A stretch of 26,112 nt of DNA from a virus. Of this stretch, positions 10,984-18,038 are shown piece after piece. The notes below the pieces were generated by a model, which ran no database searches, was not told where the DNA came from, and saw nothing but the letters and a program-made list of their open reading frames with translations. The stretch lies in IMG/VR virus record IMGVR_UViG_3300007540_000087, positions 1-26,112 of that record, one strand, 5' to 3'. The position numbers and the translations under genes were made by a program. Every line of letters begins with the position of its first letter. Position 1 is the stretch's first letter.

Positions 10984-11213
10984 GTGCGCTTATCTACTAT
11001 TTTCTTTAGACCCATGTGCGAAAGCTTGCGTCCTGTTTCAAACTCTAACCACAAGCTGCCTTCTCGTAAACTTAATGTTTTATCTTTGATCATGGGTATG
11101 ACCTTATCTAAAGCTTTTAGTTCATCGTCTATAGGCGTAAGAAGCTCTGTGTTCTTCTCGTCTAATGCATAGCCAAACGGTATAGTGCTACTAGACCTCC
11201 GTATAGTCTGCAT
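10980..11213 (-). CDS. small protein resembling a serine-recombinase fragment
   Basis: 77 aa lying between the two terminase genes, overlapping the small subunit by 23 nt and the large by 4 nt. The sequence RSSSTIPFGYALDEKNTELL, then ELKALDKVIPMIKDKTLSLREGSLWLEFETGRKLS, follows the 'recombinase' domain (PF07508) that comes after the catalytic domain of large serine recombinases: PFGY, a short beta pair, a helix, then SLRE and a helix ending R-K-L-S. No catalytic serine domain is present, so it cannot recombine DNA. I infer a DNA-binding accessory to packaging or a small regulator. Tight overlaps on both sides show it is co-translated with the terminase. Confidence 0.7.
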   Translation of the reverse strand: MQTIRRSSSTIPFGYALDEKNTELLTPIDDELKALDKVIPMIKDKTLSLREGSLWLEFETGRKLSHMGLKKIVDKRT

Positions 11214-11589
11214 CTATAACTACCTCTTTTTTCGCCGGTATGACGAATAAACCACCACTTGTGTTTACTGTCACATCTAGCCTATCAGTCTTACCTAAGC
11301 CTACACGGTCTAGAATGGTCTGTGCGGCCTGTATACGCATGTTAGCTTGTGGGATAGGAACTTCACTGTCCATGATGTGTACGAGCTTTAGAGCAGCTTT
11401 AGGGGCGCTTTGAGCTAGTATATTTGTAGCAAGATCAAGTATCTCTGTTTTTAAGCTCTTAACAACACTATTAATGCTTGTAGGCGCATAGCCTGCCATT
11501 TCTCCTGCTAGTCTTGTGTCGCCATTACAGGCTACAAGGCTATCAAGAAATGATTGTTGCTTAGTTGTGAGTTCTTTATTGTTTGACAT
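11191..11589 (-). CDS. terS: terminase small subunit
   Basis: 132 aa. The N-terminal ELTTKQQSFLDSLVACNGDTRLAGEMAGYA segment is the standard helix-turn-helix start of small terminases (xLTxKQxxFxxxxxxxNGDxxxAxxxAGYA). A central helical region follows (ATNILAQSAPKAALKLVHIM, then NMRIQAAQTILDRVGLGKTD), which forms the oligomer ring. The C-terminus is a short beta tail. It recognises phage DNA and delivers it to the large subunit. It is the first gene of the leftward operon. No Shine-Dalgarno precedes ATG 11589. The -10 box of the promoter ends 7 nt before it, so the mRNA is probably leaderless. Confidence 0.9.
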   Translation of the reverse strand: MSNNKELTTKQQSFLDSLVACNGDTRLAGEMAGYAPTSINSVVKSLKTEILDLATNILAQSAPKAALKLVHIMDSEVPIPQANMRIQAAQTILDRVGLGKTDRLDVTVNTSGGLFVIPAKKEVVIDADYTEV

Positions 11590-11596
11590 GTATTAC

Positions 11597-11625
11597 ATTA
11601 TACAGGTAAAATGGGGTTTTGTCAA
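11597..11625 (-). promoter_or_regulatory. consensus sigma-70 promoter for the structural operon
   Basis: On the minus strand, TTGACA (11625-11620), 17 bp, then TATAAT (11602-11597): a perfect match in sequence and spacing. Predicted transcription start about 11,590, at or next to the terS ATG. The -10 is preceded by TACCTG; the same TTATACAGGTAAAA word recurs at about 12,463-12,476. It implies transcription of packaging genes by the host RNA polymerase. Confidence 0.85.
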
Positions 11626-11749: not shown

Positions 11750-11778
11750 TTGACAAAATTGAATTTCAGGTGTATAAT
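11750..11778 (+). promoter_or_regulatory. consensus sigma-70 early promoter
   Basis: TTGACA at 11,750-11,755, 17 bp, TATAAT at 11,773-11,778, again a perfect consensus. Predicted start about 11,785. It points rightward into the early genes. It is the mirror partner of the leftward promoter, with 124 bp between the two -35 boxes. Confidence 0.85.
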
Positions 11779-11911
11779 GGATATTAAGCCCTCCGGGGTT
11801 ATATAGACATATTAGCCATACATTCCTTATCCATCTCCCCCCGCCTTTTAGGTTTAGATTTGTGTGTATATGCGCACTCTAACACCGCACATATGCATAA
11901 ATATAAACCGA

Positions 11912-11966
11912 TGTATACATTTATATGTACATATTTCTGTACTTTGTGTACATTTATATGCACATA
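11912..11966. repeat. pair of 22-bp direct repeats
   Basis: Two copies of TGTryACATTTATATGyACATA start 33 bp apart, at 11,912 and 11,945, differing at three positions. Related TGCATATA words flank them to the left. A 33-bp period places the copies near the same face of the helix. Possible protein-binding sites. Confidence 0.7.
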
Positions 11967-11974
11967 CCTCCCAC

Positions 11975-12241
11975 CTTTAAAGTCTTTAAAGCTGCCGCCC
12001 TAACTGGTTGACACTCCAAAGTCTTCCAAAATGTATAAGATTGTGTATATATAGGGGGAGGGGGGGTATGGTCACCTGCCCGCCCTTCAAAGACTCCAGA
12101 GTCTCCAAGCCATACACTAAAAAGACTTCAAAGTCTACAAAATTTTTAAAAATAAAAAAAATAAAAAGCTTGCACTCTGGTTTACTATACTGTAAGGCCT
12201 TTGGAGTCTTTAAAGACTAATAGATTTTAACTATAAAGACT
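11975..12241. repeat. AGACT/AGTCT palindrome cluster
   Basis: The pentamer AGACT or its complement AGTCT occurs at 11,981, 12,020, 12,091, 12,100, 12,123, 12,132, 12,205, 12,214 and 12,237, with one more at 12,285. Three pairs form 14-bp perfect palindromes: AGACTC-CA-GAGTCT (12,091-12,104), AGACTT-CA-AAGTCT in inverted-repeat form (12,123-12,136), and AGTCTT-TA-AAGACT (12,205-12,218). The flanks are often CAAA/TTTG-like. This iteration is not explained by any gene. Origin iterons or operators are the best guesses. Confidence 0.75.
12008..12039 (+). promoter_or_regulatory. possible second early promoter
   Basis: A perfect TTGACA (12,008-12,013) is followed by TATAAG (12,034-12,039). The 20-bp spacing is longer than optimal, so activity is doubtful. 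Tandem early promoters would parallel the T7 A1-A3 arrangement. Confidence 0.35.
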
Positions 12242-12390
12242 CAATAGAATCAACCATTTAGCTATAACTCTACAGCCTATATTTAGACTATCCCTAGATA
12301 GCCATATAATCCATTTTAAGGCCCGCAAAATTCTACCCTATCCCTACTATCTAAAAAGCTTTAAAACCCCTTAGACCTCAATTGAACAAT

Positions 12391-12511
12391 CCGGTCACAA
12401 CTATTTTTCTATATTCTATTGACATGGATATTTTATTCGTGTTACTCGCACACGCGTTCCTTTTATACAGGTAAAAATTTTATAGCGTGACCGAAATTCA
12501 ATATCCGGTCA
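12391..12511. promoter_or_regulatory. CCGGTCA motif set, operator-like
   Basis: CGGTCA occurs at 12,392-12,397 and 12,506-12,511, and in inverted form TGACCG at 12,488-12,493. The last two make an inverted repeat with a 12-bp spacer. Two copies follow an AT-rich ATTgAA/ATTCAA-type word. A TTGACA lies between them (12,419-12,424) but has no good -10 box. The set is about 120-240 bp upstream of the first early gene, suitable for a regulator-binding site. Confidence 0.45.
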
Positions 12512-12601
12512 TTCTTAGCCGGGTTTATTTTTAAATAATAATAGACTTATGCAAATTGACCTCTTAAGATGGGTACCAGTAACAAACAACAACCAAATTA
12601 T

Positions 12602-12630: not shown

Positions 12631-13128
12631 ATGACTACTTTATTATTGAATGAAAAAACTATTCCTACATTGGCCCGCGGATTTGTGCAAGGCGTGAACA
12701 ACAAAATAAAAATGCAAGATGCAATCACCGAGTCGATGCAAGCGTGGATAGTTAACAAAGATATAAAGGCCCGCGATGCGCTGCAAGATCTATGGGCCGC
12801 GCTGGAACATAATAAAAAGGCGCTCGCGGTTTTAAGATCGCAATACAATACAATTTCAAAGCGCGTCAAAAAAGCGAGCGGTGAGGAAAATCCAATAGCG
12901 CTTACAGTAACCGATGGCGTTTTAACTGAAGTAGTGCCGCGCAATAAAGCTGGCGGTGGTTCCGGTGAATCTGACAGTGCGATGACTAGCACTGCCGCGC
13001 CTTCAAAATCCGAAATAGAGCTGGCCGCGCATTTGGATATATTGCGCGAAATGCTTAAAAATTCAAAGGATGCAGCAGCAATTAGCGCCCTAAAATTCGC
13101 AATAGCTAAGTTGGCCGCGAGTGTATAG
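12631..13128 (+). CDS. first early protein, unknown function
   Basis: 165 aa with AAGGA about 10 nt upstream of ATG. It is mostly helical. Residues 12-80 contain long amphipathic helices (ITESMQAWIVNKDIKARDAL, then ALEHNKKALAVLRSQYNTIS). A flexible G/S/T-rich linker spans about 106-127. A C-terminal helical region follows (SEIELAAHLDILREMLKNSK). No enzyme motif, membrane segment or signal peptide is visible. Codon use is unlike its neighbours: 11 of 25 alanine codons are GCG, while the polymerase and primase genes favour GCT and GCA. As the first gene after the early promoters it could be a host-takeover factor, but I do not recognise it. A terminator-like hairpin follows. Confidence 0.7.
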   Translation: MTTLLLNEKTIPTLARGFVQGVNNKIKMQDAITESMQAWIVNKDIKARDALQDLWAALEHNKKALAVLRSQYNTISKRVKKASGEENPIALTVTDGVLTEVVPRNKAGGGSGESDSAMTSTAAPSKSEIELAAHLDILREMLKNSKDAAAISALKFAIAKLAASV

Positions 13129-17938: not shown

Positions 17939-18038
17939 TTTTTCAAGGATACCTAGCAGGTTTATAAAGTGGAGTAATGTTGCGGTGATATTCGCAGTGC
18001 TATTCACATTGTTGTTTATGTTTTTGGAGTTAGCATAA
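17892..18038 (+). CDS. tiny inner-membrane protein
   Basis: 48 aa read directly. A basic N-terminus (MLSNLLKSRRVKRLLDFSRI, then PSRFIKWS) is followed by one hydrophobic helix (NVAVIFAVLFTLLFMFLELA) that ends the protein. AGGAG lies 8 nt before the ATG. The stop overlaps the next start (TAATG). Topology would be N-inside with a C-terminal anchor. Unlikely to be the lysis holin given its place in the replication operon. Confidence 0.6.
   Translation: MLSNLLKSRRVKRLLDFSRIPSRFIKWSNVAVIFAVLFTLLFMFLELA

Follow-up and report, generated by a model that had tools for sequence, protein, structure and literature searches.

The iterated AGWCT sites (AGACT or AGTCT) in the divergent region of this phage, together with the conserved core that adjoins them, are best read, on comparative sequence analysis and published work on other phages, as one bipartite DNA site, whose most likely role, in our tentative assignment, is that of a packaging-initiation (pac-like) region. 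The window, by which we mean the whole 26,112-nucleotide stretch of viral DNA analysed here, is assigned to an HMO-2011-type podophage because its large terminase subunit (TerL) matches those of the pelagiphages HTVC115P, HTVC103P and HTVC104P at 68–70% and that of HMO-2011 at 51%; a search of a phage isolate collection returned no DNA match to the whole window. HMO-2011-type phages are described as a dominant and broadly distributed marine virus group (PMC9038755). In the text of the main survey of these phages the words intergenic, promoter, replication origin, terminal and permuted do not appear. The core with its iterated sites gives the group a concrete signal for packaging or replication that can be tested. 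The array occupies the interval between terS, which is read leftward, and the early genes, which are read rightward: terS, terL, portal and capsid genes occupy the minus strand to its left, and the early genes to its right include a T7-like primase-helicase, a Gp2.5-like single-stranded DNA-binding protein (SSB), PolA and a Cas4-type exonuclease.

The preliminary description of this DNA had reported nine copies of AGACT or AGTCT within about 265 bp and a tenth at 12285, and all of them are present (11981, 12020, 12091, 12100, 12123, 12132, 12205, 12214 and 12237, then AGACT at 12285). None of 5000 dinucleotide shuffles of the intergenic sequence contained nine copies, and the density of AGWCT also passes a look-elsewhere test, since across 300 shuffles nine copies were never attained by any pentamer. 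The three pairs spaced at 9/10 bp were likewise equalled in 0 of 5000 shuffles. Over the whole window the two pentamers are unremarkable (76 found, 65 expected), and they stand out only locally. The same description spoke of three perfect 14-bp palindromes; one of them (12205–12218) is perfect, and the other two (12091–12104 and 12123–12136) match at only 12 of 14 positions. Its statement that no gene explains the sites stands, as only short mechanical open frames overlap a stretch that is very variable between relatives. The elements of the site are as follows.

11975–11991, no strand assigned: left box CTTTAAAGTCTTTAAAG, which the core alignment shows to be conserved and which contains a single AGWCT site (11981)
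12004–12080, plus strand: conserved core, CTGGTTGACA-N-AAAATGT-N-GTATATATA-(G or C run)-TGG-NN-CCTGCC, including the AGTCT at 12020, from a 30-sequence alignment
12091–12104, no strand assigned: AGWCT pair I (AGACTCCAGAGTCT), 10 bp off the core edge
12123–12136, no strand assigned: AGWCT pair II (AGACTTCAAAGTCT)
12137–12171, no strand assigned: A-rich tract between pairs II and III, a candidate unwinding element in this phage only
12205–12218, no strand assigned: AGWCT pair III (AGTCTTTAAAGACT), the perfect 14-bp palindrome
12237–12241, no strand assigned: single AGACT
12285–12289, no strand assigned: single AGACT, the tenth copy

The core, which the preliminary description did not list, spans about 77 bp and contains many invariant columns in the alignment of 30 sequences. 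Its skeleton, with intervals that hardly vary, is GGTNNACA, AAAATGT, GTATATAT, a run of G or C, TGG and CYTGCC; in the homopolymer run G prevails in most relatives and C in others, with strand and place unchanged. Nearly all loci that reach far enough carry the core in the divergent region, and a profile search recovered it in the divergent regions of CRP-1 (E=8.7e-4) and, more weakly, of HMO-2011 (E=0.014), from which we consider the core to be probably group-wide. Since it lies about 8 kb from terS in HMO-2011 and 5 kb from it in CRP-1, adjacency to terS is no rule. HTVC103P and HTVC104P retain a recognisable core without the array.

Relatives were collected mainly through TerL, which yielded 80 loci, with the Gp88 gene adding 11; terS was found in 34 of 34 near relatives tested and in 13 of 13 records tested, a constant linkage that is partly one of ascertainment given how the set was gathered. 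In the 38 relatives left after dereplication we counted 330 AGWCT sites where about 52 would be expected, whereas AGSCT shows no enrichment (68 against 63). The spacing of AGWCT pairs in this set is strict: 57 pairs stand 9 bp apart and 39 stand 10 bp apart, seven in total fall at 8, 11 or 12 bp, and none at 1–7 or 13–16 bp. Pairs at 9 bp leave the central A/T unconstrained (AT 16, TA 11, AA 14, TT 16) and inverted and direct arrangements are about equally frequent (27 to 30), whereas 37 of the 39 pairs at 10 bp are inverted, 34 of the 39 reading AGACT...AGTCT; the difference in orientation between the two spacings gives a Fisher P of ~5e-7, which is optimistic because related phages are not fully independent. 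The 400 bp to the right of the core hold 94 pairs, compared with ~0.05 per kb elsewhere, with one location per genome, and in 21 of 37 relatives the first site lies 6–13 bp off the core edge. In more distant relatives the array takes the form of three or four direct 9-bp repeats in a run. The conserved spacing, the W-only centre and the single location per genome support the earlier proposal of a cis-acting array of protein-binding sites, and the pattern points to sites on duplex DNA that would be bound on one helical face. Retention in relatives of the same gene order, which the preliminary description had named as its test, gave a divided outcome. The near clade and several relatives with TerS identities of 47–56% retain sites of this kind, though not at matching positions; HTVC115P, HTVC103P and HTVC104P lack them, and the array is missing from the isolates examined in the collection searched. 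The array is confined to the window's clade and to relatives with TerS identity down to ~47%. Dense 9-bp AGWCT arrays were also seen in unrelated viral contigs (L109, L155, L174, L216, L219 and others); we rejected these as the same element, as they lie mostly in long open frames coding for SLQSLQ/SLESLQ-type three-residue repeats.

Two consensus promoters, placed back to back and both missing from the preliminary description, lie to the left of the site, and the first genes of either arm lie beyond.

11191–11589, minus strand: terS, small terminase subunit of 132 aa with an N-terminal helix-turn-helix (PHROG 2538, E=1.5e-4)
11597–11625, minus strand: P_L, consensus sigma-70 promoter TTGACA-17-TATAAT into terS, 12/12 match
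11750–11778, plus strand: P_R, consensus sigma-70 promoter TTGACA-17-TATAAT reading rightward through core and array, 12/12 match
12503–12524, plus strand: terminator-like hairpin ahead of the first early gene, absent in most relatives
12631–13128, plus strand: first early gene, type A, 165 aa, of no known family or fold

P_R lies 114–249 bp before the core in 25 of the 26 relatives examined. The interval from the P_L –10 box to the terS start is TATAAT-N7-ATG in 33 relatives and N6 in 3, and terS appears to be leaderless, its predicted ATG beginning 7 nt past the –10 box in the window (11589–11625). On the early side, other relatives carry in the same place a type B first early gene that is unrelated to type A. 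In type A, the window's type, most pairs are at 9 bp; in type B both 9- and 10-bp pairs occur, often together with long hairpins; seven type B relatives (L044, L048, L065, L068, L076, L079 and L080) have many hairpins to the right of the core before the first early gene, some with stems of 15–26 bp. The type B protein (L003:6888–7346 and its relatives) consists of a conserved N-terminal domain, a Lys/Ala-rich linker and a C-terminal coiled-coil-like helix, and searches for a family or fold gave no match. L003 itself is near-identical to the window in terS, SSB and primase-helicase, but is of type B and diverges just after pair I; the array may be a recombination boundary, at which near-identical phages part after the first AGWCT pair into unrelated early modules. 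In L135, L170, L212 and L200, core and array are kept although the next open frame (60 aa or more) points leftward. Unrelated first genes and leftward next frames together show that the core–array cassette is not tied to one downstream gene.

We prefer the packaging reading on account of three observations: the adjacent TerS of the ring type, the reported one-turn spacing of helix-turn-helix (HTH) motifs with a footprint of 3–5 bp, and the location of the predicted phiM6 pac cut in the corresponding region. A TerS profile built from the relatives matches the solved TerS rings 7joq (E=1.9e-6) and 6w7t (E=4.5e-5), which are nine-subunit rings of the PaP3 type (PMC9611059); the phage thus encodes, as expected beside a pac site, a TerS of a ring-forming kind with an N-terminal HTH. 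The 9/10-bp pairs lie some 500–630 bp from the terS start, placing repeats of helical-turn spacing near terS, again as expected of pac. In TerS of the SF6 type, the distance between adjacent HTH motifs is about one B-DNA turn and a DNA-binding domain spans 3–5 bp; the pac of SPP1 has direct repeats in three sets, located at terS (PMC4737164). We envision that the TerS ring, encoded just to the left, would place its N-terminal HTH domains on successive AGWCT sites, that the spacing of 9–10 bp, about one helical turn, would allow the DNA to bend round the ring, and that the large terminase would make its first cut in or near this TerS–DNA complex, from which headful packaging would begin. We infer, in this scheme, that TerS is the reader of AGWCT and that the cut is located at the array and core.

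The comparison with phiM6 concerns the cut. Its genome is terminally redundant, with a pac site predicted from reads by PhageTerm and set as position 1 (PMC6256558), and this predicted site falls in a divergent region, 600 bp before a TerS-like gene. phiM6 TerL matches that of the window at 46.8% and the TerS-like ORF at 34%; the link, made by position and protein homology only, suggests that the two regions correspond. A search with the core profile at the phiM6 pac cut found nothing significant, and an alignment made by eye between the core and the pac region of phiM6, which that search did not support, was dropped. Short repeats near the phiM6 pac cut and near the HMO-2011 and CRP-1 cores were dropped as well, having failed a look-elsewhere control. 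Several relatives assemble as circles, which would fit permuted or redundant genomes.

Several observations count against packaging. SF6 TerS has almost no sequence preference and responds little to its own pac repeats (PMC4737164), which weighs against an array that is specifically read by TerS. The two-fold symmetric AG-W-CT would be an unusual site for a single HTH, and a small dimeric binder would suit it equally well. HTVC115P, HTVC103P and HTVC104P have a TerS that is 49–55% identical, yet lack the array. The pac regions of SPP1 and SF6 resemble the present site in having repeats beside terS and next to promoters, there as direct repeats bound by a TerS ring with its HTH domains about one helical turn apart (PMC4737164); they differ in that here a single symmetric pentamer is strictly iterated at 9–10 bp beside a separate core, whereas the SPP1 boxes form three different repeat sets, which SF6 TerS hardly reads. 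A stronger form of the packaging reading strikes us as doubtful: the array, an orientation-blind 5-bp site iterated at one-turn pitch beside a conserved cutting core, would be dedicated to sequence-specific recognition for packaging, and it, but not the core, would be gained and lost between subgroups of a phage group that is among the most abundant in the ocean. If true, such an array would be a natural system for studying how ring TerS proteins read DNA. Current models fail to explain specific DNA recognition by TerS (PMC9611059), and if TerS reads the array, the spacing of its sites would bear directly on how TerS rings recognise DNA.

The main rival to packaging is a replication origin, a possible function that we rate as somewhat unlikely: the AGWCT sites would be iterons for an initiator, and the origin would be activated by P_R transcription through the core, as in lambda, or primed by the P_R transcript, as in T7. 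The position at the early/late divergence, the consensus promoter reading through core and array, and the T7-like primase-helicase, Gp2.5-like SSB and PolA encoded in the genome all agree with this. There is precedent in ori-lambda, where transcription through the origin stimulates replication (PMC3985674), and in SPP1, whose origins consist of direct repeats and an AT-rich element (PMC6316719). Here too, an early promoter lies close to the repeats and reads across them, but the repeat is much shorter, and neither a conserved unwinding element nor an initiator gene was found. In the window's region, no 50-bp stretch is less stable than that of the A-rich tract at 12137–12171, but an unwinding element occupies no fixed place among the relatives profiled. 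The tandem repeats may be replication-origin iterons, as suggested earlier, but with no conserved unwinding element. The array-bearing relatives have an SSB, and mostly a primase-helicase, nearer to the window's than are those of the array-less HTVC phages, whereas TerS does not separate the two groups; this slightly better tracking of the array by SSB is weak, since the identities are ordered mainly by relatedness. L057, moreover, bears the array with a primase-helicase only 42–46% identical, which argues against the primase-helicase as reader. No initiator candidate was found; the gene beside the array has no known family or fold and is replaced by an unrelated one in type B. DnaA and IHF sites are not enriched, nor are CtrA sites; GANTC is modestly enriched (198 versus 117). 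GC skew, which had been proposed as a check, follows gene direction and does not discriminate, its maximum in two complete isolate genomes lying at a convergent gene junction and not opposite the array.

That the sites are operators or other transcription-control elements of the early operon, to which a repressor or activator would bind as a dimer (a ribbon-helix-helix protein, for instance), possibly as a roadblock in the P_R leader, is in our view improbable. A two-fold symmetric, orientation-free pentamer does suit a small dimer bound in tandem, and the array stands downstream of P_R and ahead of the first early gene. The met boxes of MetJ, a ribbon-helix-helix repressor, are likewise tandem short symmetric sites of similar letters (AGACGTCT) with a pitch of 8. 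Here, however, the pitch is 9–10 bp, and sequence searches detected no such protein, nor any conserved ribbon-helix-helix gene. The sites also lie 200–500 bp downstream of P_R with no overlap of the promoters, and the cassette is kept with unrelated first genes and with a leftward next gene. The preliminary description had suggested the HTH protein at 18038 as a possible reader of such operators, an assignment that is not supported: tblastn finds no such protein in many relatives that carry both the array and the neighbouring SSB gene (L013, L044, L048, L049, L057, L064, L065, L077 and L079), and the protein itself has no Pfam hit. We also rejected as readers a DUF932 protein, which is missing in the array-bearing G011 and present in the array-less HMO-2011 and CRP phages, and the first early proteins of types A and B, which are unrelated to each other and whose structures gave no significant match.

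That the palindromes are instead hairpins of a structured, noncoding leader RNA transcribed from P_R is very unlikely. The conservation of P_R and the long hairpins further to the right in many type B relatives would fit such a leader, but with inverted and direct arrangements equally frequent, half of the 9-bp pairs could not form a full hairpin, and only the 10-bp pairs are consistently inverted. The stretch in the window has 2 perfect stems of at least 6 where ~1 is expected by chance, RNA folding z-scores are mixed on both strands, and Rfam returned no family, with sub-threshold chance hits only.

Short iterated sites beside a strict core also recall two further layouts, an attP with integrase arm-type sites and a cos site with fixed ends, either of which we regard as close to negligible here. 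In lambda cos, which comprises cosN and the R sites of cosB, a strict core stands beside iterated TerS sites, much as the core stands beside the AGWCT array; in contrast to lambda, no fixed ends are seen here, the genomes assemble as circles, and the sites are of 5 bp, not ~16 bp. PaP3, whose solved TerS ring is matched by the TerS profile above, has a TerS that binds its own cos site specifically (PMC9611059). For attP, none of nine long relatives, the longest of 49.8 kb, yielded a tyrosine integrase. For cos, contig ends to the right of the core form a loose cluster between +53 and about +700 bp, spread over ~650 bp with no fixed point, and assemblies that close into circles run across the site. 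Exact end overlaps of 90–127 bp occur in three relatives, and complete relatives circularise elsewhere. The cluster resembles the result of assemblies breaking within variable repeats rather than a cohesive end. The two ends of the 46,840-bp contig of L054 share 248 bp, with a single mismatch, inside the array, as in a circular genome interrupted in these variable repeats. To the left of the core, at 11911–11966, the window contains another set of palindromes, formed by TGTACA/GTATAC-like repeats, in a stretch whose folding scores are strong on either strand.
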